Assembly (NCBI GenBank): GCA_017795005.1
Contig: CP051242.1
Coordinates: 3,092,119 to 3,156,118 of the forward strand
DNA from: Balneolaceae bacterium
GTDB lineage: Bacteria; Bacteroidota; Rhodothermia; Balneolales; Balneolaceae
Direction of reading: 5' to 3'
DNA length: 64,000 bases
The notes beneath the pieces are model-generated. The model searched no databases. It was not told where the DNA came from and saw only the letters and a program-made list of their open reading frames with translations. The translations under genes and the position numbers were made by a program. Positions 14,118 through 33,135 of the stretch are shown here, piece by piece (positions within the stretch are counted from its first letter, which is position 1; each line of letters opens with the position of its first letter).

Positions 14118-16685
14118 TTACTTCAACAGAACCATCTTTTTGGTTAGAACTTGCCCTCCTGCTACTAACCGGTAAATGTACACACCGCTTGCAAGAGAAG
14201 AGGCATCGAAATTGATGGTTTTTTCGCCAGCGGTTTGTCTGCCCTGAACCAATGTGGACACTTTTCTTCCCATCAGGTCAAATACTTCTAACGAAACATT
14301 GGTGGTTTGATCCAGAGAATATGAAATGGTAGTTGTCGGATTAAATGGATTCGGATAGTTTTGATTCAACTGAATATGGTTCACTGTTGAAAGAGCCTCA
14401 TCTTCATTTGAAGTGATAATTCCCCATCTAAAACGAACCCAAACCGGATAGTGATCGGATGTCTGACTTAAATAACTTCCGATATAGGAAGGATTCTCAA
14501 CCCTCTCAGTACCTTCAAAATATTCATCCATCAATTCAGAAGTAATGGTGATGTGATCAATCATTGAAAAACCACTGTAAGAGGTAAACCCACGTTCTTC
14601 CAAGGTTTTTGTAAGAATGGTGTATTCTGAATCGTCATCGAAATTTTTATAGGGAGAATCTTGTCCACCTACTGATGAAGCTAAAATCTCATCGTTGTAA
14701 TCACCTATTACAATTACGTTACTTTCCGCTTCATTTTGGTCTAAGTAATTCTTTAAAGTAATAGAGGCATCTCTTCTTCGAACATAATCTTCCTGTTCAC
14801 CCAATGCTTTTGCATGAATATTATAGGCTTTGATATCACGGATTTCCTGATCAAACACAGCCTGAAAACTAAGTTCTAGAGGATACCTTCCATTTGCCCA
14901 GTCATAACTCACCTGCCCCAGTGTTAATAAGCCGGAACTCACAACATTTATCGTACTGGTTTTATATAAATACGCGGTTTTCTGAGTTTGAGAAAAGCTA
15001 GCCAGGATTCCGTCATATGCATCTAAGGAATCTATTAGTCGATTGAACATGGTTGCATTTGATATTTCCTGCAGAGCAAATAAGTCAGCGTCGATGCTAT
15101 CAATAACGGTAATTACATTATTCAATTGGATTTCATCATCTTCGGGACCATTACTTGCTGAACCAAACCATTCAATATTCCAGGTAACGATATCCAGTGT
15201 TTCATCTTTAGAAATATCTTCACCGGGAATTTCATTGGTTACAGCATCAATGTCGTTCAGATCACGCGGCTGAATTTGATAGGTTCCCCTGAAATTACTT
15301 ACCACCCCGACAATTGTCGTAACTCCTGTCGGCGCAGTTGAACCCACTATATCTGTAAAACTGCTTATTCTAAGTTCACCAACTCCGGTTTGATCACTAA
15401 CCTGGTAGTTTGTATTGCCTTGTAAGGCACCGGTATGATCAATTTCTACATTGAGCGCCACTAGCTGACCTTCGAAATTCCCGGTATTCATTGCACTCAC
15501 TGAGATTGCAATTGGCTCTAAAGGAGTCTCATTGGATTTAAATTCAAACTGAGGACTATCCCCCACGATTTGTTTTAACTCATTAAAACTACCGAGTTCC
15601 CCGGTCAAGTATATAGAATCACCTCGACTTACATTAGAGAAGAAACCAGCTGTATTATCTCTCATTTCGCTATAATACCAGGCAATCCCGCCGGTTTCAT
15701 CCTGAAAATACATCGGGCCTTCAAATTCTTCGGCAACCGTTACAATACCCGCTATACTCACGACTTCACCTTCTGTTAACTCTCTTGCAGTAGAAATCGG
15801 AATGATTCCATCTGCATCCACTGCATCACCTTGTACGCTTAGTGTAAAATCTGAATGATTGGTCGCGTTACTACCAATTTTTAAGCCTTGAATATTTAGG
15901 TATTGACCTTGTTGTTCCGGAGAAAAAGTAAGAGTAAGCTCGGTACTTTCGTTAAACCCAAGAGAAGAATCCTGCAAAGCCGAAATAGAGAAGGGATATC
16001 CTACTACAACAGAATCAATTTCAAGCAGATTACTTCCCGAGTTTCGGATTTCAATAGTTTTTGAGCTTTCATTTCCTGTTAATGTGGTAGGAAAAGAAAT
16101 TGTCATTTGATGCTCTAAACTTTCTTCATCAACAAAAACATTAATGGTAGCATCTTCTTGGGGAGCAATATAATCTGTAATTCTGATATCATCGATATTC
16201 ATTCTGTCGGTTCCTGAAGACTGAATGAATTTGAATCGAATGTTCCCATCTACCTGAACCGGAATGGTATATTCGGTAAGTTCGAAAGGAGCAGGTATTT
16301 CATCCCCTATATTTTGCCACGAGCTTCCTCCATCAATAGAATACTGAACCTGAAGTGCAGCTTCCTCAGCTTGATTTCCATAATGTGCTAAATAAAAAGA
16401 AACTTCATCAGCTCCATTCGGCTTATCAAACTGCATATAGATATTACCGGTTTTGCCATCTCTACGGTCCATTCGAACACTTTGGTCCCCATTAAACTTA
16501 TCATTGGATAAATCCCCAAGTAAGGCATCGTCCAAAAACCAGTCACCAGTGGATAATGAAACGGTTGCTCCTGAATACCCAGCTTTGCTTCCATCTTCAA
16601 AATCCTCGAAAAGCTGAGCGTGGGTTAAAGTAGTAGAAATAAAAAAAGTGAGAAGTAGTGCGAACAGGGTACGGCTCAGTTGCAT
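14118..16685 (-). CDS. Secreted endonuclease/exonuclease/phosphatase-family nuclease with C-terminal sorting domain
   Basis: An 855-residue extracellular protein. Order: signal peptide (ending LTHAQ), a jelly-roll-like segment (residues 25-170, FEDFEDGSKAGYSGA and DDIRITDY), a choice-of-anchor D/ASPM-like Ig domain (about 190-285), an OB-fold region (295-480, GEVVSIAGIVTVAEEF), an EEP catalytic domain (about 496-755, DIVTWNIEWFG, FALQEIS, VIGDYNDE, SDHYPVWVRF) and an NYPNPFNPTTTISY-type sorting domain (773-855). The EEP residues fit a metal-dependent phosphodiesterase, and this layout resembles secreted ExeM/NucH-type DNases. Likely role: degrading extracellular DNA or RNA. The sorting domain predicts type IX secretion. 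It is divergent from the giant nucleotidase, with a broken cupin gene between. Confidence 0.88.
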   Translation of the reverse strand: MQLSRTLFALLLTFFISTTLTHAQLFEDFEDGSKAGYSGATVSLSTGDWFLDDALLGDLSNDKFNGDQSVRMDRRDGKTGNIYMQFDKPNGADEVSFYLAHYGNQAEEAALQVQYSIDGGSSWQNIGDEIPAPFELTEYTIPVQVDGNIRFKFIQSSGTDRMNIDDIRITDYIAPQEDATINVFVDEESLEHQMTISFPTTLTGNESSKTIEIRNSGSNLLEIDSVVVGYPFSISALQDSSLGFNESTELTLTFSPEQQGQYLNIQGLKIGSNATNHSDFTLSVQGDAVDADGIIPISTARELTEGEVVSIAGIVTVAEEFEGPMYFQDETGGIAWYYSEMRDNTAGFFSNVSRGDSIYLTGELGSFNELKQIVGDSPQFEFKSNETPLEPIAISVSAMNTGNFEGQLVALNVEIDHTGALQGNTNYQVSDQTGVGELRISSFTDIVGSTAPTGVTTIVGVVSNFRGTYQIQPRDLNDIDAVTNEIPGEDISKDETLDIVTWNIEWFGSASNGPEDDEIQLNNVITVIDSIDADLFALQEISNATMFNRLIDSLDAYDGILASFSQTQKTAYLYKTSTINVVSSGLLTLGQVSYDWANGRYPLELSFQAVFDQEIRDIKAYNIHAKALGEQEDYVRRRDASITLKNYLDQNEAESNVIVIGDYNDEILASSVGGQDSPYKNFDDDSEYTILTKTLEERGFTSYSGFSMIDHITITSELMDEYFEGTERVENPSYIGSYLSQTSDHYPVWVRFRWGIITSNEDEALSTVNHIQLNQNYPNPFNPTTTISYSLDQTTNVSLEVFDLMGRKVSTLVQGRQTAGEKTINFDASSLASGVYIYRLVAGGQVLTKKMVLLK

Positions 16686-17356: not shown

Positions 17357-17447
17357 TTAACGAAAAATTAACCTTTAATTTATTCATAAACATACACTTA
17401 ATAGTCCTTTAATTTATTCATAACCGTGGAGTAACGATTAGATAAAG
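17357..17447 (+). promoter_or_regulatory. 11-bp-phased TAA array, candidate response-regulator binding region
   Basis: Upstream of the giant nucleotidase, five units of the form NTAANN start at 17398, 17409, 17420, 17431 and 17442 (TTAATA, TTAATT, ATAACC, GTAACG, ATAAAG), each exactly 11 bp from the next. Two more pairs also show 11-bp spacing: TTAACG/TTAACC at 17357 and 17368, and TAA at 17376 and 17387. An 18-bp direct repeat, CCTTTAATTTATTCATAA, occurs at 17372 and 17406. Eleven-bp phasing is the geometry of PhoB/PhoP boxes. A weak -7-like element TAAAGTTG overlaps the last unit. Binding is inferred, not shown. Confidence 0.5.
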
Positions 17448-17498
17448 TTGGGTTCGCATTCTGGGTTTTCACTAACCCTTAATTAATAAACCTAACTA

Positions 17499-20400
17499 AT
17501 GAAGAAACAAGCTAACATTTCTCTTCTTTTAGCACTTTTTGTGCTCTCATCGGTTGGTGTATTTGCTCAGGAAGTTTCTCTGGAACTTATCGGCGAATAT
17601 CATACCGGACTTTTTGATGCAGGCGCTGCTGAAATTTCAGCATATGATCCTGCTTCTAAACAATTATTCTTTACCAACGCAGAAGACAACTCCATTGTCG
17701 TTCTTAATCTTAGTGACCCGGAAAACCCCACCGAAGTTACTACGATTGATATGAGTATTTATGGAGATGGGGTAAACAGCGTAGCAATTTATAATGGATT
17801 GGTTGCAGTTGCGGTTCAAGCAGACCCAAAAACTGATCCGGGATCAGTTGTATTTTTCAAAGCAGCTGATGCCTCGCATATTAGTACGGCTACGGCTGGT
17901 GCTTTACCTGATATGGTTACCTTTACTAATGATGGCTCCAAGGTTATTGTAGCCAATGAAGGTGAACCAAATGATGATTATGATGTAGACCCGGCAGGTA
18001 CAATCTCCATTCTTGATGTTTCAGGATTTGATGTTTCTACAGGAACGGGTACAGCTGTTGTTACTACAGCGGATTTCACATCATTCGATGGACAAGAAGC
18101 TACACTTAGAAGCGAAGGCATTCGAATTTTTGGTCCAGGTGCAAGTGCTTCACAGGATTTCGAACCAGAATACATTACGATTTCTTCTGATGATGCCACC
18201 GCTTTTGTATCTCTCCAGGAAAATAATGCCCTGGCAATTGTTGACATCGCTTCCGCTACGGTAACCGATGTAATCGCGTTAGGGTTTAAAGATCATTCTC
18301 AATCTGGAAACGAACTGGATGTCAGCAATGATGATGATGCTATTAATATTACGAACTGGCCGGTTTGGGGGATGTATCAACCAGATGCAATTTCTTCTTT
18401 CAACATGGAAGGAATCGAGTACATTGTTACTGCTAACGAGGGTGATTCCCGAGATTATGATGGTTTTTCAGAAGAAGCACGTATTCGTGACCTTCGCCTG
18501 AATCCTTCTATTTTTACTGACGCTGACATTCAGGACAATGAAAACCTTGGTCGCCTCAATATTACTACTACTTTAGGAATTAACTCTGATTCCACCTTTT
18601 TATATACCGAGCTGGAAGGTGATCAGGAAGTTCCGGAAGTAGATTCTGATGCAGAAGGTGAAGGTGAGTTCTATTTCAGTGCAACCAACGATACTCTTTA
18701 TTTCCTTTTTTACATCGAGGGATTGGATTTTGGCGAACTTGCTGGAGGAGATTCTGTTACCGCAGGCACTCAGGATGATGTAACCGGAATGCATTTTCAT
18801 ATTGGAGAAAGTGGAGCCAACGGCGGAGTAGTATTTAACATCGGAACCGATGCTGATACGGAATTCGAATTGATTGACAGTACTGCTGCTTGGGTTTCCG
18901 GCTTTTGGGTTCAAGGCGAAGGATCAGGTTCTGATCTCTCCGACTTTGCAACCGCTTTTAATTCTGCCGGATTTGAAGAAGAAGTAAATGTGTATGTAAA
19001 CGTCCACACCGTTGCAAATCCAAGTGGTGAAATCCGTGGACAGCTTTATGGCGATCCAATGTACGATGCTCTTTATTCTTATGGCGCTCGTTCGTTCTCC
19101 ATCTGGAATGGTTCTACCGGAGCCCTTGTCTGGGATAGTGGCAGTGAATTTGAAAACATTCTTTCTGTTATCGAATCAGATAACTTCAACTCCACAAATT
19201 CCGAAAACGATTCCTTTGATAACCGTTCGGATGACAAAGGTCCTGAACCAGAAGCGGTAACTGTTGTTCAATTAACAGGAAAAAATTACGCTCTTATCGG
19301 GCTCGAAAGAATTGGTGGAATCATGGTGTATGATATTTCTGATCCTACCAGTCCTGAATTTGTTTCTTACGACAATGTTCGAAACTTTGATGAACTCGAT
19401 TTCAATGAAGATGTAATCGAAGGATTGGATGACCTTGCTGACGTCGCAGGAATCGCAGCAATTATGGAATCCACTGTGGCTTCAGGACCTGAAGGAATTA
19501 GTTTCCTTATGCAGGGTGCCAGCCCGGTTGGAGCTCCTTTGGCAGTGGTGAGCAATGAGGTAACAGGTTCTATCACCATTCATGAGATTGAGTTTGAATC
19601 TGAAGCTGCTCCTCTTTTCTTCTCTGAATACGCGGAAGGAAGCAGCCAAAACAAATATCTCGAAATCTATAATCCAACCGATGAAGATATAGATTTAACA
19701 GAGTATGCTTTCCCTAATATGAATAATGGTCTTTCTGGAAGTAACCAAAACAACGTTGCGGGAGAATTTGATTTCTGGAATTCATTCCCGGATGGTTCCA
19801 TCATCGAAGCAGGTAGTGTATTTATCATCGCTGATGGAGATGCTGATGCCTATATCACAGACAGAGCAGATTTGATACATGAATTCCTAAGTAATGGTGA
19901 CGATGCTTATGCTCTGGTTTACGGAACTGAAGATAACTATGAAATCCTGGACATTATCGGCGACTTGTTTGTTGATCCCGGTTCTGGATGGGAAGTTGCT
20001 GGTGTAGCAAACGGAACTCAAAATCATACCCTGGTTCGTAAATCTACTGTAGAAGAAGGAAACCCCACTCCACTTGGTTCTTTTGGTACATCAACAGAAG
20101 ATTCTGAATGGGAAGTTCTGGATATTGATGAATGGTCAAGTCTTGGTTTCCGTGGAATACCACAGCCGTTTACTCTTACAGTACTTCATAACAACGATGG
20201 AGAATCTCAGCTTATAAATGCTGGTGATGGCCTTGAAGATTATGGTGGAATAGCACGATTCAAAACACTTGCTGATCAACTAAAACAAGAAGCGGCTGAT
20301 TCAGGAAATGTATATGTGATGGTTTCTTCAGGAGATAACTTCTTGCCGGGACCTGAGTTCAACGCCAGTCTGGATTTAGGCACCTATTTTGATGCCCGTG

Positions 20401-22727
20401 GCATCGGATTAATTGGATATGATGCACTTGCTATGGGTAATCATGATTTTGATGCCGGACCGGTTATTTATTCAGAATTCATTTCTGATACGGAAGGAAA
20501 TGAGCCTCCTTTCTTAAGTGCTAACCTTGATTTTTCTAATCAACCGGACTTATTAGCACTAGAACAAGAAGTAAGAGTTGCTGCCAGTACTATTATAAAT
20601 GTAGGACAAGATGTAAAGGTCGGTATTATCGGTGCGACAACCGAAAATCTTGGTTTTATATCAAGTCCAGGTACAGTAATAGTGAATGATGTACTTCCTG
20701 CAGTTCAGGCTGAAGTAGCTGCACTTCAAGCTGAAAATGTACGTGCTATTATTCTTATAAGTCACTTACAAGGAATTGAAGAAGACTCGGTATTAGCAAC
20801 TCAGCTTTCCGGCGTTGACATCATGATAGCTGGTGGTGGAGATGAGCTACTTGCTAATGATGGAGACCTTCTTATCCCTGGTGATGAAGAAGAAGTTCGA
20901 TCCGCTTATCCGATGGTTGTAAAAGACGCCGACAACAACGATGTGCCCGTAGTTACCGGAAAAGGGAACTACACGTATTTAGGTAGATTAAATGTTGAAT
21001 TTGATGCAACAGGAAATGTACTCGCCTTTAACGGTGGTCCGGTGCGTGTGGCTGATGCTTCACTTCCAGGTGGTGTTGAAGAAAATCAACAAATGCTTGA
21101 TGAAGTAGTTACTCCTGTAGAAGAGTATGTAGAAGGATTATCACAGACAAAAGTTGCTACAACTGAGGTTCATCTGTTTGGTGCCCGAAATGATATCCGT
21201 TCATTTGAGACGAATATGGGTAACCTGATTACAGATGGATATCTGGCGGTAACGTTAGATCAGGCTGAGAACTTTGGACTCGAACTCGATCCATCCCGTC
21301 TTGTAGCAATTGCTAATGGTGGTGGAATCAGAGACGAAATCCGTCCTGGTTCAATTAATGCACGTCAAACCTTTGATGTACTTCCATTCGGTAATATTCT
21401 GGCCGTTCTTGAAGATGTTTCCCCTGAACTCCTTCTGGAAATAATGGAAAATGCTGTTTCCAGAATTGATCCTGCTACCGGAGAGCGGGCAGGTGATGGA
21501 ACAGGTCGTTTTGCCCAGATTGCTGGTTTCTCGATTGAATTCGATCCATCACAACAAGCCATTGTATACAATGATGACGAAGGTCAAACGATTGCCACAC
21601 AAGGTGAGCGAGTTCAAACTATAATTCTGAATGATGGTACTCCAATTGTTCTTGACGGTGAAGTTGTTGCAGAAGCACCAAGTGTTGATTTAGTGACAGC
21701 GGATTTCACAGCAAGAGGTGGTGATCAGTATCCATTCAGAGGTAAGGAATTCACTACTATCGGAATAACGTATCAACAATCACTTCAAATTTACCTGGAA
21801 GATTATCTGGGCGGAGTTGTATTTGCAAGCCGTTATCCGGCAAGTGGAGAAGGTAGAATTATTGACCTTATTAACTCTATTCCAAACGAAGCTCCGGAAA
21901 TCAATCTACCGGTTGAGATGAGTTTCCTTGAAGACGGTTCTCTTGTTTTTGATATGGCACAGGTTGTTTCAGATGAAGATGATGTATTATCAAGCCTATC
22001 TGTTATGATCAACAGTGAATCCGTTAGCGGGTCTACTGACGGATCAATACTTACCTTTACCGCTCCGGCTAACTTCTATGGTCAGGAATGGGTTCGGGTT
22101 ACCGTAATGGATGAAGCCGGTGCAGCTGCTTCTGATTCTGTTATTGTTACTGTTGTTCCTGTAAATGATCCACCTGTTGCTAACTTCACTATAGAGCAGG
22201 ATGGCTTCGAAAATGGAGACAATGTTATCACTCTAACTGATGAGTCGAATGACGCCAATGATCCAAATGGATTCATTGTCTCCTACTTCTGGGATTTTGG
22301 AGACGGAACTAGCAGTACTCTTCAAAACCCAAAGCATACATATCAAACGACTAATGAATTCGAAGTGAGTCTTACTGTAACTGATAATGAAGGCGCTACA
22401 GCTACATTAAAAGAAACAGTAAATGTAACCCTGGTTACAGCTTCAGAAACTGAAGGGAAACCAACAGAGTTTGCTCTTGAGCAAAACTATCCAAACCCAT
22501 TCAACCCGACTACCAACATTAATTATTCAGTACCACAAGCTTCTAAGGTGAATATTGAGGTCTATAACTTAATGGGGCAAAGGGTTGCAGTATTGGTAAA
22601 TGAAGTTAAAGCAGCTGGTAATTATACCGTCACATTTGATGCTTCCTCGGTATCAAGTGGAGTATATATCTACCGAATTCAGGCTGAAAACTTTATCAGT
22701 ACTAAACGAATGACATTGATTAAATAA
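17499..22727 (+). CDS. Giant secreted choice-of-anchor I / CHRD / lamin-tail / 5'-nucleotidase / PKD protein
   Basis: A 1742-residue extracellular protein. After a signal peptide (ending GVFAQ) comes a choice-of-anchor I beta-propeller (about 25-700) that contains an inserted CHRD domain (about 368-520, ELEGDQEVPE to GEIRGQLYGDP). Then a lamin-tail domain (704-830), a UshA-type metallophosphatase (890-1200; VLHNNDGESQ, SSGDNFLPG, MGNHDFDAGP, ILISHLQG), a 5'-nucleotidase C-terminal domain (1215-1440; NMGNLITDGY, IANGGGIRDEI), a cadherin-like segment, a PKD domain (1556-1645, FWDFGDGTSS) and an NYPNPFNPTT sorting domain (1660-1742). Likely role: releasing phosphate from nucleotides outside the cell. 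One metal-ligand variation is visible, with HNND where many family members have HTND. Confidence 0.88.
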   Translation: MKKQANISLLLALFVLSSVGVFAQEVSLELIGEYHTGLFDAGAAEISAYDPASKQLFFTNAEDNSIVVLNLSDPENPTEVTTIDMSIYGDGVNSVAIYNGLVAVAVQADPKTDPGSVVFFKAADASHISTATAGALPDMVTFTNDGSKVIVANEGEPNDDYDVDPAGTISILDVSGFDVSTGTGTAVVTTADFTSFDGQEATLRSEGIRIFGPGASASQDFEPEYITISSDDATAFVSLQENNALAIVDIASATVTDVIALGFKDHSQSGNELDVSNDDDAINITNWPVWGMYQPDAISSFNMEGIEYIVTANEGDSRDYDGFSEEARIRDLRLNPSIFTDADIQDNENLGRLNITTTLGINSDSTFLYTELEGDQEVPEVDSDAEGEGEFYFSATNDTLYFLFYIEGLDFGELAGGDSVTAGTQDDVTGMHFHIGESGANGGVVFNIGTDADTEFELIDSTAAWVSGFWVQGEGSGSDLSDFATAFNSAGFEEEVNVYVNVHTVANPSGEIRGQLYGDPMYDALYSYGARSFSIWNGSTGALVWDSGSEFENILSVIESDNFNSTNSENDSFDNRSDDKGPEPEAVTVVQLTGKNYALIGLERIGGIMVYDISDPTSPEFVSYDNVRNFDELDFNEDVIEGLDDLADVAGIAAIMESTVASGPEGISFLMQGASPVGAPLAVVSNEVTGSITIHEIEFESEAAPLFFSEYAEGSSQNKYLEIYNPTDEDIDLTEYAFPNMNNGLSGSNQNNVAGEFDFWNSFPDGSIIEAGSVFIIADGDADAYITDRADLIHEFLSNGDDAYALVYGTEDNYEILDIIGDLFVDPGSGWEVAGVANGTQNHTLVRKSTVEEGNPTPLGSFGTSTEDSEWEVLDIDEWSSLGFRGIPQPFTLTVLHNNDGESQLINAGDGLEDYGGIARFKTLADQLKQEAADSGNVYVMVSSGDNFLPGPEFNASLDLGTYFDARGIGLIGYDALAMGNHDFDAGPVIYSEFISDTEGNEPPFLSANLDFSNQPDLLALEQEVRVAASTIINVGQDVKVGIIGATTENLGFISSPGTVIVNDVLPAVQAEVAALQAENVRAIILISHLQGIEEDSVLATQLSGVDIMIAGGGDELLANDGDLLIPGDEEEVRSAYPMVVKDADNNDVPVVTGKGNYTYLGRLNVEFDATGNVLAFNGGPVRVADASLPGGVEENQQMLDEVVTPVEEYVEGLSQTKVATTEVHLFGARNDIRSFETNMGNLITDGYLAVTLDQAENFGLELDPSRLVAIANGGGIRDEIRPGSINARQTFDVLPFGNILAVLEDVSPELLLEIMENAVSRIDPATGERAGDGTGRFAQIAGFSIEFDPSQQAIVYNDDEGQTIATQGERVQTIILNDGTPIVLDGEVVAEAPSVDLVTADFTARGGDQYPFRGKEFTTIGITYQQSLQIYLEDYLGGVVFASRYPASGEGRIIDLINSIPNEAPEINLPVEMSFLEDGSLVFDMAQVVSDEDDVLSSLSVMINSESVSGSTDGSILTFTAPANFYGQEWVRVTVMDEAGAAASDSVIVTVVPVNDPPVANFTIEQDGFENGDNVITLTDESNDANDPNGFIVSYFWDFGDGTSSTLQNPKHTYQTTNEFEVSLTVTDNEGATATLKETVNVTLVTASETEGKPTEFALEQNYPNPFNPTTNINYSVPQASKVNIEVYNLMGQRVAVLVNEVKAAGNYTVTFDASSVSSGVYIYRIQAENFISTKRMTLIK

Positions 22728-25702: not shown

Positions 25703-26998
25703 TTAATCGTTCCAACGAACCCAATTACCAGTAGCCCAATTTGTAGTTCCAAAGGCTCCTACAAATGTAGCGCTGGTGTTAAAAAATCCATCATTTGGGG
25801 GAGTAGCGCCTGTAACAGTTACAGTTGGACGGAAATCATAAGTTGCTGCATTGGTATATAATGGATCCTGATCCATAGTAACTGCTCCGAAGTCAGTTGA
25901 ATCGGCAACATTAGCAAAACCACCATTATTCCATACTATAGTATTTCCAATAGTTAGGCTTTGTCCAAAATTAGAACGAGTATCGTCTTCGATTTTAAAA
26001 CTTAAATCATCGAAATCTGAGATGATGAAGTTTTCAAGTTCACCTTCAAACTCTTCTCTTAAACGCATTCCATAATTCTTGTCTTCTGCATCTTTAGTTG
26101 ACCCATCTTGAGTTAATCCAACCATAGTCACATTGTAAAGAGTTGGAGAAGTTGCACTACCAGAACCAAGAGTTTTACGACCATCTGACTCAAAACCATT
26201 ATCAGCGCCTGCAGTTTGAACAGCTAACCAATACTGACCCTTTCCATTCCATCCTTCATCCATATCGAAAGAGTCATCATCATTAAATGCAGAGATAAGG
26301 TATTTTGCATTTACCGCTCCACCGAACCATTCGAATCCATCATCGGTACATTTATATACCTGAATATATTCAAGAGTAGTTCCGCTACCTACCGAGTACA
26401 TACTTAACCCGTTAAGCTCTGAACCTTCTACGAATGAAAAACCAACATATTCAATTCGTACATACTTAAGGATTCCGCTGTCATCCGCATTGTTTGTACC
26501 TCCATACTGGATCGCATCTGGAAGTCCTTCAACTTCACCTTTTCCTCCTTCAATGTTGTTTACGCCTTCACCCGCAAGCACTATTCCTCCCCAGTCACCT
26601 GGTTGTTTTGTTGACCTCGCGGAGGTAAACACGATGGGATTATTAGCTGTCCCTTCAGCAACCAATCTACCACTTGCTCTTGGTGTGTCAAAGTTTTCAG
26701 GGTCAGCCGGAAGAGTAATAATAGCTCCTACATCATCAATGTTATTATTGTGATAAGTGAAGCCTACGGTTACACCTGCTTCAATTATAAGTGTAACTCC
26801 AGGTAGTACATAATACTGCCCGGTAAGTGTTTGGTCTTCATCCCAGATAGTGTCTTCATCAATAAGAGTACCTGGTAAAGAGGCATATATTTCGGGAACT
26901 TCACCTTCATCACCTCCACCTGTGCTGTTATCGCATGAGGTAAATACAAATGTGAACGCAAGTGCGAATAGTGATAAGAGTTTAAGATTAGATTTCAT
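25703..26998 (-). CDS. Surface lipoprotein with parallel beta-helix, partner of the TonB receptor
   Basis: A 431-residue lipoprotein: signal peptide ending FTSC followed by a DNSTGGGDEGE linker. A flexible acidic linker after the cysteine is typical of surface-exposed lipoproteins in this phylum. The body is a right-handed beta-helix: LPGVTLIIEAGVTVGF, GRLVAEGTANNPIVFTS, GILKYVRIEYVGFSF, TLEYIQVYKCTDDGFEWFGG and further coils. It lies 24 bp after the TonB receptor in the same operon, taking the place that SusD-like lipoproteins occupy in SusCD pairs, although it is not SusD-like. Likely a substrate-capturing partner of that receptor. The ligand is unknown. Confidence 0.8.
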   Translation of the reverse strand: MKSNLKLLSLFALAFTFVFTSCDNSTGGGDEGEVPEIYASLPGTLIDEDTIWDEDQTLTGQYYVLPGVTLIIEAGVTVGFTYHNNNIDDVGAIITLPADPENFDTPRASGRLVAEGTANNPIVFTSARSTKQPGDWGGIVLAGEGVNNIEGGKGEVEGLPDAIQYGGTNNADDSGILKYVRIEYVGFSFVEGSELNGLSMYSVGSGTTLEYIQVYKCTDDGFEWFGGAVNAKYLISAFNDDDSFDMDEGWNGKGQYWLAVQTAGADNGFESDGRKTLGSGSATSPTLYNVTMVGLTQDGSTKDAEDKNYGMRLREEFEGELENFIISDFDDLSFKIEDDTRSNFGQSLTIGNTIVWNNGGFANVADSTDFGAVTMDQDPLYTNAATYDFRPTVTVTGATPPNDGFFNTSATFVGAFGTTNWATGNWVRWND

Positions 26999-27022: not shown

Positions 27023-29719
27023 TTAGTTAAATGAAAAATTGAAGCTCACCGAAAAGGCGGTGCCGATCTCGTATTGGTTTGTTATTACATCACCTTGTTT
27101 GTAGGTAATGTTATCATTTAAAATATTATCGATACTCGCACTAACAGATGCTTTGCCGAAATTTTTTGTGAAGCTTACATCAAGCTTGTTGAAAGGTTGT
27201 TCGAATTCATCATCAGGTTGCTCATTATTTCCAACCGCTGAAATTCGTTTCCCAAATGTGTTGAAGGAAAGTGTTGCCTCTGCATCAATTTTAGGAAGGA
27301 GATAAAATGCATTTGCATTAAATGTATAAGGAGATTGCCCAAACATCGCCCTTTCTGCATTTGCCTGACGCCCTACGGAAGCTCCATCTGCGTAATTAAC
27401 TTCTGAAATTATGTAAGAAAGATTAGAACTTAATTTAAGTTGATTAGTGATGTTCTTTCTGCCTTCAAGCTCGATTCCATAAAGCTGTGCCTCGTCTACA
27501 TTATCATAGCGAACCTCGTTATTTTGAGTAATTCGATAAAATAGTTCAATGGGATTTTCAAATTTCTTGTAGAACGCACTAACCGCAAATAGTTCGCCTG
27601 TATTCGGGTAGGTTTCCCATCTTAAGTCGTAATTAAAAATACGGGTTCTTTCCAGATTCGGGTTTCCATAGACAGTTCGTCCACCAACAAAATCCTGAAA
27701 ATTGAAATTTGAAAGCTCACGGAATTCCGGTCTTGCTAAAGTTATAGAGAAAGCTCCTCTAAGATTCGTTTCATTCGTTGGGCGGAAAGTAAGATTGAAT
27801 GCAGGAAGGATATCTAATTCGTCAATCAGTACATCCCCATCGATAAACTGAGCTGAATTTTCTGCTCTAACCCCAGTAACAATATTCCACCTATCGGTTG
27901 GTGACCAATTAAATGAAAAATATCCGGCAGTAAGTTCTTGTTCTCCATTATAAGAATCCCTTGAGCTAGAACTTTCAATAAGATCTAAGTTACCTGCGAT
28001 AATATTTTCTGAAGTAAAAATTTCTTCAGGAGATAGTGATTTATCTTCATTAGGGAAGTTATTTCCTAAGTCTTGGTAAACTAGTTTGTAGGACTCAAAC
28101 GAACGGTCTTTATATAGCCCAAATGCTCCAATTTTAACATTTAACTCATCAAATGGCTTCAGCTCGTAATCAAATCCACCAGAGTAATTATTGTCATTTT
28201 GGAAAGAAAAGAAGTGAGTGTTTCCTCTAAAAGGAAAAATTACTTCCAAATCATTTTCATCCGTTCTTACATACTGTGTTGTTCTACGATCAGGTAAATC
28301 TCTTACAGCTTTAGAATAAGTTAGATTTGCTTCCAGTTTAGATGAAAGAAAGTTGCTGAAATAAGTCTCGAAATTTAAAGAAGAAGAAAAAATTGCTCTT
28401 CTATCAAATTCTAAAACTGTCTGCCTGTTATCATTTCCAAAGTTATAATAACTACCTTCGATTTCAGAAAACTTATTACTGGATGAATTTGAGTACAAAT
28501 TCTTTAACCCAACTTTAGTAACAGCAGTTGGTTTCACAAACACATTTAACATAGTGCTCAAACTAGTCGATTCTGTCCCTGTATTTCGTATGTAATCAGA
28601 TCCTAGTAATGTTGTATTCGTGCTTTCATTGTAGTTATTTATATATCGTAGAGTCTCATTAACCTGAGCCTCTGTAGCATACTTATAGCTAACATTTGAA
28701 ACGACACCTATAGGCATTTTATCCTCATTAAACTGAGAACTAAAGCTTGCACTTATTTTCTGACTAGGTAAAGAAGTGATATTTTTAGATCCCCACGAAG
28801 AGTTTAAATCGCTTACAATGGATGCAGCTTCCGCGTCCGATGTAATATCACTGTCTTTAACGTCTGAGGGTAAACTCCTGAATCCATCATCAAAACCAAG
28901 GTAATCTGTACTACCGCCTGAATAACCCAAATAGTTATTGAATGTGGATATAGAATTAATTTCGGTAGAATACGAGATTGATAAATTTTTTGAATCCGGA
29001 AATTCCTTAGTGATAATTTTAACGGAACCTCCTGAAAATTCCCCAAATTGATCAGGAGTGAAAGTTTTTTGAACTAAGATATTATCAACAATCCCACTTG
29101 ATAAAATATCAACAGGGGCTTCTTTTTTGTTTGGGTTCGTAGAAGGTACTGGTGCTCCATTAAGCTGTACGTTACTATACCTGTTACCAAGACCTCTTAC
29201 ATAAACATCTTTTCCACCTACTACAGAAACACCTGAAACTCTTTTCATTGCAGAGCCAACGTTCCCATCACCTGTCTTGGAAATCTCTTCAGATGAAATT
29301 CCATCTTGTACGGGTACCGATTTTTTCTGAGCAGCCAATAAGCCTGCTTCTCCGCTTTGCACTGCTTCAGCGGTAACAACGATTTCATCGAGAAATTCCG
29401 ATTCTGGTTGCATAGCAACATCTAGTCGAACTACTTCACCTTCTTCTACTACTAAATCAGTAATTAATTGAGTAGAGTAAGAAAGATAGCTCACTTTAAT
29501 GTTGTAGGTTCCTGCTGCAACTCTTCTAATGGTATAGTTTCCATCAATATCGGTTGCTGTACCTTGAATGGTACCTTCTATTACTACGTTCACACCGATC
29601 AGAGTTTCTCCGGTTTCGGCATCAACTACGGTTCCAACTATTCTACCTTCCTGCGCAAATAATTGAGATGAGATAAAAAGCGCAACTATTAAGAATAGTC
29701 CTTTTTTGAATGTATTCAC
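27023..29719 (-). CDS. TonB-dependent outer-membrane receptor
   Basis: An 898-residue receptor that imports a ligand across the outer membrane using TonB energy. A signal peptide ending QLFAQ is followed by a carboxypeptidase-regulatory-like beta-sandwich (residues 25-105, GTVVDAETGETLIGVNV), a plug domain (115-240; VSGVSVVGGKDVYVRGLGNRYSNVQLNG, then FSGGSVKIITKEFP) and a 22-strand barrel ending FSVSFNFSFN with a terminal aromatic-rich strand. The VRGLG plug is of the type paired with beta-helix lipoproteins. Its promoter region carries a five-unit, 11-bp-phased array that suggests control by an OmpR/PhoB-type regulator. The ligand is not evident. Confidence 0.93.
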   Translation of the reverse strand: MNTFKKGLFLIVALFISSQLFAQEGRIVGTVVDAETGETLIGVNVVIEGTIQGTATDIDGNYTIRRVAAGTYNIKVSYLSYSTQLITDLVVEEGEVVRLDVAMQPESEFLDEIVVTAEAVQSGEAGLLAAQKKSVPVQDGISSEEISKTGDGNVGSAMKRVSGVSVVGGKDVYVRGLGNRYSNVQLNGAPVPSTNPNKKEAPVDILSSGIVDNILVQKTFTPDQFGEFSGGSVKIITKEFPDSKNLSISYSTEINSISTFNNYLGYSGGSTDYLGFDDGFRSLPSDVKDSDITSDAEAASIVSDLNSSWGSKNITSLPSQKISASFSSQFNEDKMPIGVVSNVSYKYATEAQVNETLRYINNYNESTNTTLLGSDYIRNTGTESTSLSTMLNVFVKPTAVTKVGLKNLYSNSSSNKFSEIEGSYYNFGNDNRQTVLEFDRRAIFSSSLNFETYFSNFLSSKLEANLTYSKAVRDLPDRRTTQYVRTDENDLEVIFPFRGNTHFFSFQNDNNYSGGFDYELKPFDELNVKIGAFGLYKDRSFESYKLVYQDLGNNFPNEDKSLSPEEIFTSENIIAGNLDLIESSSSRDSYNGEQELTAGYFSFNWSPTDRWNIVTGVRAENSAQFIDGDVLIDELDILPAFNLTFRPTNETNLRGAFSITLARPEFRELSNFNFQDFVGGRTVYGNPNLERTRIFNYDLRWETYPNTGELFAVSAFYKKFENPIELFYRITQNNEVRYDNVDEAQLYGIELEGRKNITNQLKLSSNLSYIISEVNYADGASVGRQANAERAMFGQSPYTFNANAFYLLPKIDAEATLSFNTFGKRISAVGNNEQPDDEFEQPFNKLDVSFTKNFGKASVSASIDNILNDNITYKQGDVITNQYEIGTAFSVSFNFSFN

Positions 29720-29765
29720 GAGTGTGCTGATTTATTTATTTTGTTCGCGTTTATTCATTGCGACA

Positions 29766-29843
29766 CAAAATTACCACACACTCTTTGCGGTACTGTTACC
29801 TTGGGTTTATCCTTTTGTTATCGGTAGATTATCTAAATGTTAA
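29766..29843 (-). promoter_or_regulatory. TonB-receptor promoter with five 11-bp-phased activator units
   Basis: Reading on the minus strand, units TTAACA, ATAATC, ATAACA, ATAAAC and GTAACA lie at 29843-29838, 29832-29827, 29821-29816, 29810-29805 and 29799-29794. Each carries TAA at positions 2-4 and each is exactly 11 bp from the next. Twenty bases after the last unit is TAATTTTG (29773-29766), a perfect TAnnTTTG -7 element. The last unit therefore replaces the -33 element, as Pho boxes replace the -35 element in activated promoters. The TTAACA core matches the known Bacillus PhoP box. A leader of about 40 nt results. Confidence 0.65.
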
Positions 29844-29851
29844 CCAGAAGA

Positions 29852-31939
29852 CTACTCTTTTTCGGTTCCTTCGGTTTCTTGTTCTTCAGTAGCTGATTCC
29901 GCTTCAACTTCTACATTTTCAGAAACAGTTTTCTCGGATTCATTTTCAGATACTTCTTCTTCCTGAGAATATTCCGCTTCCTTTTTTTCTCCGTTTGTAA
30001 AAGCCTGATAGGTTGTCTCTTTATCAAATGGTCTTTTACCGATCAACTTTTCCAGATCAGCCTGGAATAGAATCTCTTTCTCTAATAATTCTTTTGCAAG
30101 GATTTCAAGCTCAGCTTTCTTCTCTCTTAATAATTCCAGAGTACGCTGATACGCTTCGTCAATGATCTTTTTAACTTCTTCATCAATAATGGTTGCCGTA
30201 GCATCAGAATAAGGCTTATTAAAGGTATAGTCGTTTTGTTTTGAATCATAAAAGGAAACATTTCCAATTTTATCATTCATACCATACACCGTAACTATGC
30301 TATAGGCCATCTTGGTTATGCGTTCAAGGTCACTTAAGGCTCCGGTTGAAATCTTTCCGAAAATAATCTCTTCGGCAGCCCTTCCGCCAAGGGTCATACA
30401 CATCTGATCCATCAACTGCTCAGTTTGATGTAAGAACTGTTCTTTCGGTAAATATTGAGCGTATCCTAATGCTGCAAGTCCTCGAGGAACTATTGATACT
30501 TTTACCAATGGATCAGCATGCTCCAAAAACCAACCTGCAACAGCATGGCCTGCCTCATGATAGGCAACGATCTTTTTCTCTTCGGGAGAAATAATTTTAT
30601 TCTTCTTCTCCAGTCCGCCAATTACACGGTCAATGGCATTCTGGAAATCTTCCATGTCCACTGACTTCTTGTTATTTCGAGCTGCAATTAAAGCAGCTTC
30701 GTTACATACATTGGCAATTTCTGCACCGGCAAAGCCAGGAGTTTGAGCAGACAACTTCTTAGGATCTACTTCCTTATGAAGTTTAAGAGGCTTAAGATGC
30801 ACTTTAAAGATCTGTTCTCTTCCGTTAATATCCGGTTTATCAATACTTATTTGTCGATCAAATCTTCCCGGGCGAAGAAGTGCATTATCTAATACATCCG
30901 GTCGGTTTGTTGCAGCAAGTATAATTACACCCGAATCTGTTGCAAAACCGTCCATTTCCACTAAAAGGGAATTCAGAGTATTTTCACGCTCATCATTTGA
31001 TCCAGGCATTTGTCCTTTCCCTCTGGAACGACCAATGGCATCAATCTCATCAATAAATACAATACAAGGTGCTTTCTCTTTCGCAGTTTTAAAAAGATCA
31101 CGTACACGTGCAGCTCCAACTCCAACAAACATTTCAACAAAGTCGGATCCTGATAAAGAGAAGAAAGGTACACCGGCTTCACCTGCTACCGCTTTAGCTA
31201 GAAGTGTTTTACCTGTTCCCGGGGAACCAACCAATAATGCACCTTTAGGAATTTTACCACCCAGCTTTGTGAATTTACCCGGGCTCTTTAAAAAGTCTAC
31301 AATTTCTTTTACTTCTTCTTTTGCTTCCTCAAGTCCGGCAACATCTTTAAAAGTGATTTTGGTATCTGTTTGCTGATCATACAGGGCAGCTTTGTTTTTA
31401 CCAATGTTCAGAACCTGTTGACCTGGATTCATTCTTCTGAAAATGAATACCCAGAACCCAACAGCCAGCGCAATCATGATGATCCACATGAATACACCGC
31501 TAAACCACTCTTCTTCAATCCTGACTTCATATTCTACGTTATTCTCATCAAGAATAGGACGTATTTCATCGCCAGGTAGCATAGTAGTTACAAATGCTCT
31601 GTACTCTTCGGAATTACCTGAAGCTAAATTTAACGGATTATCATCCTGTACCGGTCTTTGAATGATTCCGTCTGAAATGGCTTTATCATTGTACTTACCA
31701 TAAATATTTATGCCGTTCTTAATGATAATTTCTTCAACATAGCCTCCCTTAACATCATCCAGAAATTTACTGTACTTAATATCATTTCCTCCCTCTGGAT
31801 TGAGGAACATTATCTGAACAAAAATGAGAAGTAAAATAATTACAAGAAACCCCCAAGTAGGAAACTTAGGATTTCCACCTTTAGCATTACCCAGAGGTGG
31901 CTTAATCTGTTTTTTTGGAGTGGGCTTTTTATCGGCCAT
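29852..31939 (-). CDS. ftsH: ATP-dependent zinc metalloprotease FtsH
   Basis: Membrane-anchored AAA+ protease for quality control of membrane proteins and regulators. Two transmembrane segments (about residues 27-47 and 145-167) flank a periplasmic domain. The AAA module has Walker A GSPGTGKT near 241 and Walker [12 protein letters not shown]; the pore loop is FVEMFVG. The zinc site HEAGH lies near residue 462. The 695-residue protein ends with a 55-residue acidic tail rich in E, S and T that is not part of the core. It lies about 100 bp downstream of thiL and has its own sigma-54-type promoter in that gap. Confidence 0.97.
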
Positions 31940-32039: not shown

Positions 32040-33068
32040 CTATGACAAATCATCAAAACTCAGCACATCACCTTCAGCAGTTTGCATGTTCAGACCTTCG
32101 TCTTTTGGAGTCATCCTACCTATAACAGCAAAGTCTTTAAAATGTTCTATAAACTGTTCTACTTGTTTTTCACTTAACGTAAATAACAATTCCAGATCTT
32201 CTCCTCCAAATAAAGCGTATTTATCTACATCCTCCTCCATTTCGTCTGCTACATGCCTCGTTTCGATAGCAACCGGTAATGCAGCCTGATAAAGATAGGC
32301 TCCTAATCCTGAAGCATTACAAATCTCTGTAACTTCATTAATTACCCCCTGAGTCAAATCTATCATTGAAGTAGGAATTATTTTCTGATTGGACAGTGCT
32401 TCAATTAAATCCTTCCTGGCTTCCGGCATAAGCTGGCGCTGTACAACGAACTTATAATCCTCTAAGTCGGGTTGGATTGCGTCATCACCATGCTGTTCCC
32501 AGAATTTTTTCTCCCTCATCAGAATTCGTAGTCCTGCAATAGCAGCACCAACATCACCTGTTACACAAATTGCATCTCCAATATTTGCTCCATTTCGGTA
32601 CGTAATAGTATCCTCTGAGGCTTTTCCATATACACTTACTGAAATAACAGCATTATTATGGTTTCCGGTAAGATCTCCTCCTACTAATTCAACATTGTAC
32701 TTTTTACAGGCATTATCTATTCCTATATACAAATCCTTGACCATCTGAACCGATAATCTATTTGGAAGTGCAAGGTTGACCAAAATAGAGATTGGTATTC
32801 CATTCATTGCATAAACATCACTTACACTTGCAGATACTATTTTATAGCCGAAATGTGTAAATGGAGTATAAGTAGGATCAAAATCAACTCCCTCAACAAA
32901 GGTATCACTACTTAGCAAGGTAATAGATCCATCTTTCTCTTTTAAAGCTGCAGAATCATCACCAATTCCTTTGACGGTACCTTCATTTGTTAAACCAGTA
33001 AACTCTGATAACTCCCTTAGAAGTCCTTTTCTACCTATACTTTGTATCGTAATAAATTCTTCAGACAT
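32040..33068 (-). CDS. thiL: Thiamine-monophosphate kinase
   Basis: Phosphorylates thiamine monophosphate to the active cofactor thiamine diphosphate. The 342 residues follow the AIR-synthase fold: GIGDDSAAL near the N terminus, LLSSDTFVEGVDF, SVSDVYAMNG, ELVGGDLTG and ICVTGDVGAAIAGL. The usual MIDISDGL motif is here SMIDLTQGVINEV, a divergent version that keeps the first aspartate. A C-terminal FGGEDLELLFT completes the fold. It stands alone between the exbD terminator and ftsH; no other thi genes are present. No TPP riboswitch is visible in the 67 bp upstream. Confidence 0.94.
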   Translation of the reverse strand: MSEEFITIQSIGRKGLLRELSEFTGLTNEGTVKGIGDDSAALKEKDGSITLLSSDTFVEGVDFDPTYTPFTHFGYKIVSASVSDVYAMNGIPISILVNLALPNRLSVQMVKDLYIGIDNACKKYNVELVGGDLTGNHNNAVISVSVYGKASEDTITYRNGANIGDAICVTGDVGAAIAGLRILMREKKFWEQHGDDAIQPDLEDYKFVVQRQLMPEARKDLIEALSNQKIIPTSMIDLTQGVINEVTEICNASGLGAYLYQAALPVAIETRHVADEMEEDVDKYALFGGEDLELLFTLSEKQVEQFIEHFKDFAVIGRMTPKDEGLNMQTAEGDVLSFDDLS

Positions 33069-33080
33069 ATTTCTTAAATA

Positions 33081-33114
33081 AAAAAAACCAGCACATAAAA
33101 TATGCGCTGGTTTT
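33081..33114 (-). terminator. Terminator of the exbB-exbD operon
   Basis: On the minus strand AAAACCAGCGCATA pairs with TATGTGCTGGTTTT (one G-U pair) around a 3-nt loop, followed by a T run. On the plus strand the same pair would be an A/C mismatch, so the hairpin is better for the minus transcript. It separates exbD from thiL, 22 bp past the exbD stop. Confidence 0.88.
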
Positions 33115-33135
33115 AAGGTTCTTTAAACCGGGTAG

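Follow-up and report, generated by a model that had tools for sequence, protein, structure and literature searches.

We analyzed a 64,000-nucleotide window of a Balneolaceae genome that consists of a single contig of 3.75 Mb and is 99.5% complete. On its minus strand, ftsH is followed by the genes for a TonB-dependent receptor and a lipoprotein (Table 1). The receptor comprises CarboxypepD_reg, plug, and barrel domains; its match to NCBIfam TIGR01782 lies below the cut-off, and its score against the SusC/RagA model is far below (62 bits, with a cut-off of 368). The initial annotation had described its partner as a beta-helix lipoprotein that is not SusD-like, and prediction bears this out. Namely, the protein lacks the SusD Pfam family, its AlphaFold2 model (pLDDT 80.6, pTM 0.84) points to a right-handed beta-helix, and nearly all top PDB structure matches of that model are right-handed beta-helix proteins, although none reaches an E value of 0.001. 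A sequence search of the PDB with the lipoprotein profile returned nothing significant. A scan of named genomes yielded more than 550 relatives of the lipoprotein in Bacteroidota and also in Myxococcus, Acidobacteria, and Gemmatimonadetes; a receptor adjoins the relative in most of the 80 that were kept. The family thus has hundreds of members across phyla, yet no Pfam model. As a proxy for ElpS/Fjoh_0546, we used the Flavobacterium pectinovorum lipoprotein encoded beside phoB/phoR (locus L158), which is 31% identical to the window's protein. Judged by sequence through this proxy, the pair is of the known ElpS/CC0171 type (FI/FII in Flavobacterium), not SusCD.

Table 1. Features of the receptor locus, the second array, and the candidate regulator genes (window positions unless a locus is named)
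Feature	Position	Strand	Basis
T9SS-sorted choice-of-anchor I / CHRD / LTD / 5'-nucleotidase protein	17499..22727	+	downstream of second array
Second five-unit 11-bp array	17399..17445	+	shuffles, box model, orthologue phase
ElpS/FI-FII-type lipoprotein	25703..26998	-	predicted right-handed beta-helix, no Pfam family
TonB-dependent receptor, CC0171/Fjoh_0545-like	27023..29719	-	Pfam PF13715, PF07715, PF00593
Right outer arm CAGCACACTC	29720..29729	-	adjoins GTG start codon
Right inner arm CGCGAACAAAA	29739..29749	-	within 5' leader
Left inner arm TTTTGTGTCGC	29760..29770	-	overlaps -7 element
Left outer arm GTGTGTGG	29774..29781	-	upstream of predicted transcription start
Whole candidate Pho-box promoter	29765..29843	-	six 11-bp half-sites and -7 element
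-7 element TAATTTTG (TAnnTTTG, sigma-ABfr type)	29766..29773	-	position and consensus from PMC7366714
Candidate dimer site 3: GTAACAGTACC (strong) + GCAAAGAGTGT (degenerate sixth unit)	29778..29799	-	alternation
Candidate dimer site 2: ATAACAAAAGG (strong) + ATAAACCCAAG (weak)	29800..29821	-	alternation
Candidate dimer site 1: TTAACATTTAG (strong) + ATAATCTACCG (weak)	29822..29843	-	11-bp phase, 22-bp alternation over 23 orthologues
ftsH, co-directional upstream gene	29852..31939	-	array neighbor in most relatives examined
PhoB / PhoR candidates	L088 1045-1722 and 1719-2807		PhoB models are the regulator's best match, below curated cut-offs

The region between ftsH and the receptor gene holds a phased array that starts 8 bp past the ftsH stop codon. 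From 29843 to 29765, the minus strand reads, in order, TTAACATTTAG ATAATCTACCG ATAACAAAAGG ATAAACCCAAG GTAACAGTACC GCAAAGAGTGT GTGG TAATTTTG. Rereading this strand reproduced what had been noted before: five TAA-centered units (TTAACA, ATAATC, ATAACA, ATAAAC, and GTAACA) are spaced at exactly 11-11-11-11 bp, and 20 bp separate GTAACA from TAATTTTG. Two features had been overlooked, a sixth, degenerate unit in the same phase (GCAAAG at 29788-29783) and an alternation of strong and weak units with a period of 22 bp. The candidate -7 element follows the TAnnTTTG consensus reported for sigma-ABfr (PMC7366714), the last half-site lies about 9 bp from it, and its usual upstream companion, a -33 TTTG, cannot be seen at the expected distance. 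This layout is consistent with an array that replaces the -33 element. The -7 string TANNTTTG occurs at chance level within the window (66 found, 69 expected).

Two copies of the five-unit TAA pattern lie in the window, one in the receptor promoter and one in the second array, against an expectation of 0.00 (0 of 100 dinucleotide shuffles). Genome-wide, the four-unit pattern gives 5 matches and its reversed control 7. Bare TAA counts across the genome were dropped as proof because reversed controls are equally frequent, and since such phasing does not discriminate, conservation was used as the test. The evidence for the array is its position and its conservation.

The receptor search covered 59 genomes from the same genus, family, and order, of which the best 30 places were read. 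The initial annotation had held that orthologous promoters without the 11-bp spacing would speak against its reading. This check did not refute it: four to seven TAA units at exactly 11 bp occur upstream of 19 of the 30 receptor genes, the one in the window among them. The other 11 upstream regions hold fewer than four units, and among them at least two genomes have an array before the lipoprotein gene instead. The phase of the array and its distance to the -7 element are retained down to about 35% receptor identity, while the intervening DNA has been rewritten. In an ungapped alignment of 25 boxes, the distance to a TAnnTTTG-like element is equal within about 1 bp in most, and the sixth unit, usually GCAAAG, extends the phase. 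Over 23 orthologues, TAACA occurs in 50 of 69 odd-numbered units and in 3 of 69 even-numbered ones, an alternation whose nominal p value is inflated because the species are related. The natural reading would be three tandem 22-bp dimer sites, or four in the two species with longer arrays.

The same array precedes genes of phosphate metabolism. An unguided five-unit search of these genomes revealed, in two relatives, six-unit arrays immediately upstream of pstSCAB-phoU (the genes that follow are pstS, pstC, pstA, pstB, and phoU), and the register of dimer site 3 to the -7 element equals that of the pst box in the relative locus L044. A sequence-only box model, built from 25 boxes of which two are these pst boxes, was run on the same genomes. 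Besides receptors, it picked out pst operons in three more genomes as preceded by a box. Other boxes stand in front of an OprP-type porin gene next to pst and, in three genomes, in front of PlcP-type metallophosphoesterases, two of them with a glycosyltransferase confirmed as the next gene (the PlcP-Agt arrangement). In the window genome, the model finds only two convincing sites: the receptor promoter, with an E value of 6e-18 that is circular because this box was part of the training set, and the array at 17399, which lay outside the training set and reaches 1e-5 over the whole genome. The functions encoded by pst, OprP, and plcP-agt are established in phosphate starvation, and PlcP and a glycosyltransferase are phosphate regulated in Flavobacterium johnsoniae (PMC8115612).

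The pattern extends to distant relatives. Counted over 66 promoters of distant receptor genes, pairs of TAAC number 44, 10, 23, and 29 at 11, 22, 33, and 44 bp, against at most 5 at any other distance, and the opposite-strand control is low. At least four of six phased TAA units occur in 26 of 64 distant promoters, compared with 0.55% of shuffles. In Flavobacterium, the array sits between divergent phoB-phoR and the receptor-lipoprotein pair; at F. johnsoniae Fjoh_0543-0546, which has this arrangement, both the receptor and the FII lipoprotein respond to phosphate depletion with strong induction (PMC8115612). Because the array precedes pst and plcP operons and phosphate-responsive loci of the phoBR type, we read it as a PhoB-type Pho box. 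The phosphate-type regulon proposed in the initial annotation is strongly supported by the arrays before pstSCAB-phoU, plcP-agt, OprP beside pst, and receptors adjoining phoB/phoR.

Very probably, then, the array is a Pho box that PhoB fills at low phosphate, which would lead to transcription of the receptor and lipoprotein genes. Each 22-bp site would take one head-to-tail PhoB dimer on two half-sites of the form nTAACAnW, repeated at 11 bp, with the upstream half strong and the downstream half weak. A PhoB-like regulator and a PhoR/PnpS-like kinase are encoded at about 342 kb, beside a ruvA gene named from its sequence by eye. The name PhoB is not certain for this candidate because its scores fall below the curated cut-offs (235 of 296 bits and 220 of 270). 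This pair is the probable source of the phosphorylated PhoB that would occupy the array under phosphate limitation. The last dimer would end just upstream of TAATTTTG, where a -33 element would otherwise stand, and would recruit sigma-ABfr RNA polymerase for transcription of the receptor and surface lipoprotein genes. Since candidate PhoB sites are conserved before the same pair across a large bacterial group, the pair likely belongs to the response to scarce phosphorus and may serve phosphorus acquisition. The predicted beta-helix would fit polymer binding as well as anything else; that the pair imports a phosphorus-containing ligand, as suggested initially, is a guess. As a counterpoint, the Caulobacter cc0171 receptor is reported to be constitutive and elpS induced (PMC2996285).

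Alternatively, the array could be bound by another OmpR-family response regulator that uses 11-bp half-sites and responds to a signal other than phosphate. Direct repeats of 10-11 bp are frequent among the sites of OmpR-family regulators, and the window genome encodes at least six members of the family. The match of the half-site to TTTAACA, the core of the Riemerella PhoP DAP-seq motif (PMC9603813), speaks for the Pho box but also fits this alternative, as no phosphate role is reported for that regulator. Yet the same array recurs before pstSCAB-phoU, plcP-agt, OprP beside pst, and phoBR-adjacent receptors, which makes this scenario improbable. Even less credible is a purely structural role of the phased units, as intrinsically curved or UP-element-like DNA without a specific regulator: they are AT-rich, spaced near the helical repeat, and placed upstream of a -7 element, but they are strand-specific TAAC(A) rather than A-tracts, as the low opposite-strand control indicates, they alternate in strength at 22 bp, and the arrays are confined to Pho-type genes. 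Chance phasing in AT-rich DNA, which would accord with the genome-wide four-unit counts, is contradicted by the window shuffles and already refuted by conservation, as position and register are repeated before the orthologous gene in about 20 genomes.

In the window genome, no family match was found to PstS (PBP_like_2), PhoU, PHO4/Pit, or the Na/Pi cotransporter, with positive controls, and PhoU is likewise absent from both congeners and several other array-bearing genomes. This counts against the Pho-box reading, since without PstS and PhoU phosphate sensing cannot take the Escherichia coli route. Missing pstS and pstACB were noted earlier in Gracilimonas (PMC4642740), and plant-associated Bacteroidetes without PstSABC are also described in the literature. 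What is new is that a candidate Pho box is retained in a near-complete genome in which none of these four components is detectable. Its persistence in genomes without Pst and PhoU bears on how phosphate is sensed there and, in the window genome, also on how phosphate crosses the inner membrane.

The second array, unmentioned in the initial annotation, precedes the gene for the T9SS-sorted 5'-nucleotidase protein, an association that is new. Upstream of the 61%-identical orthologue in a congener (G002), four units are still in phase and the intervening sequence has changed. Close to this array, a T9SS-sorted exonuclease/endonuclease/phosphatase-like protein is encoded at 14118-16685 on the minus strand; in another genome (G008, L085), its orthologue is a near neighbor of the receptor pair. 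The region is possibly a neighborhood for scavenging extracellular nucleic acids.

In receptor orthologues linked to ftsH, nested complementary arms extend from the sixth unit up to the start codon (29720-29781 on the minus strand of the window), and the motif ATCAGCACA in the right outer arm, by the GTG start codon, is common to most of them. RNAalifold, run on leaders aligned with MAFFT, gave no structure, with the loops misaligned; z-scores for each sequence and a swap test took its place. The mean folding z-score of the dyad is -2.5 over 25 boxes, compared with -0.6 for genes of the same loci, 14% of which also reach -2. Native pairs of left arm and right region have a mean stability of -14.8 kcal/mol, which weakens to -10.4 kcal/mol when the right regions come from other species, and none of 20,000 permutations was as good as the native pairing. 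By these measures the dyad covaries between orthologues, and it is new. Distant Bacteroidota loci gave no dyad signal and no dependence on the orientation of the upstream gene. The dyad was rejected as an ftsH terminator: the window has a terminator-like stem at 29792-29772, but judged by eye it is not kept in relatives, L007 and L016 among them.

With the left arms present, the start region is predicted, in 15 of 15 orthologues, to be less accessible than in an RNA that starts past the -7 element or in one with a shuffled upstream part. On this ground we infer a possible guard against read-through translation. Somewhat doubtfully, we suggest a translational gate in which RNA reading through from ftsH pairs the left arms with the leader and hides the start codon; only RNA from the PhoB promoter, lacking these arms, would then be freely translated. 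In F. johnsoniae, leader structure tunes initiation in such SD-less bacteria (PMC6847099). In favor of the gate, the two pst boxes, which have divergent upstream genes, lack the dyad. Two observations speak against it: a comparable pair can be seen by eye at the 17399 promoter (GTTGGGTT at 17447-17454 with AACCTAAC at 17489-17496; GTTAGGTT in the orthologue), where the upstream genes diverge as well, and distant loci show no relation to the direction of the upstream gene. The dyad may otherwise be a shared repressor operator, but its stems vary in sequence from lineage to lineage and are not the same in the two promoters.

Elsewhere in the window, a strong predicted hairpin near 33068-33130, upstream of the gene at 32040-33068 (minus strand), has z-scores of about -4 to -5.7 in several orthologues; it could represent a terminator or an element of the leader. 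Among the relatives, G005 has lost the receptor and kept the array and dyad after ftsH (L069 7190-7236), followed by an ArsR-ArsM arsenic pair, and G007 (L067 8361-8791) has kept the array and a 121-aa remnant of the receptor. In one sub-lineage, genes of the size of ArsM-like methyltransferases (about 300 aa) recur downstream beside the receptor locus (L066, L067, and L078), and in L066 a transporter of the bile-acid-symporter family is also found downstream. There may be a link between the handling of phosphate and that of arsenic.

Our literature search found no phosphate box described for Bacteroidota and related bacteria, for which the present model offers a concrete, searchable one. Through cis-regulatory evidence, it further connects scarcity of phosphorus with a widespread lipoprotein family that lacks a Pfam model. 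The gene pair is of a known kind; what is new is the grammar of the promoter, its retention where Pst/PhoU are absent, and the dyad.

The Bacillus PhoP box is an 11-bp repeat of TTAACA, and the E. coli Pho box has the core CTGTCAT. The candidate box described here shares with both the 11-bp direct half-sites, the 22-bp dimer period, occurrence before pst genes, and a position in place of the -35/-33 element. It differs from the E. coli box in its TAACA core and from both in its three to four tandem dimers of conserved strong/weak order; moreover, it faces a sigma-ABfr -7 element about 9 bp downstream, whereas the E. coli and Bacillus boxes face a sigma-70 -10 element at about 10 bp. The gene pair resembles PUSIV of F. 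johnsoniae (TBDT Fjoh_0545 and lipoprotein FII Fjoh_0546, beside phoBR; PMC8115612), in which a receptor is likewise followed by a pectin-lyase-fold lipoprotein; the PUSIV-equivalent pairs of other Flavobacterium species also carry the phased TAAC array. In contrast to PUSIV, the pair lies behind ftsH, far from phoBR. An example of the family described earlier is Caulobacter ElpS (CC0170) with CC0171, again a lipoprotein paired with a TonB-dependent receptor and linked to phosphate starvation, a type whose co-occurrence in many genomes has been reported (PMC2996285, PMC11208175). There, the T2SS secretes ElpS as its substrate, and independent regulation is reported for elpS and cc0171, whereas here one array precedes both genes. 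With SusCD/PusCD systems, some of which are induced at low phosphate, the pair shares a CarboxypepD_reg-plug-barrel receptor and a surface lipoprotein; it differs in that the partner is SusD-like in those systems and a predicted beta-helix here.
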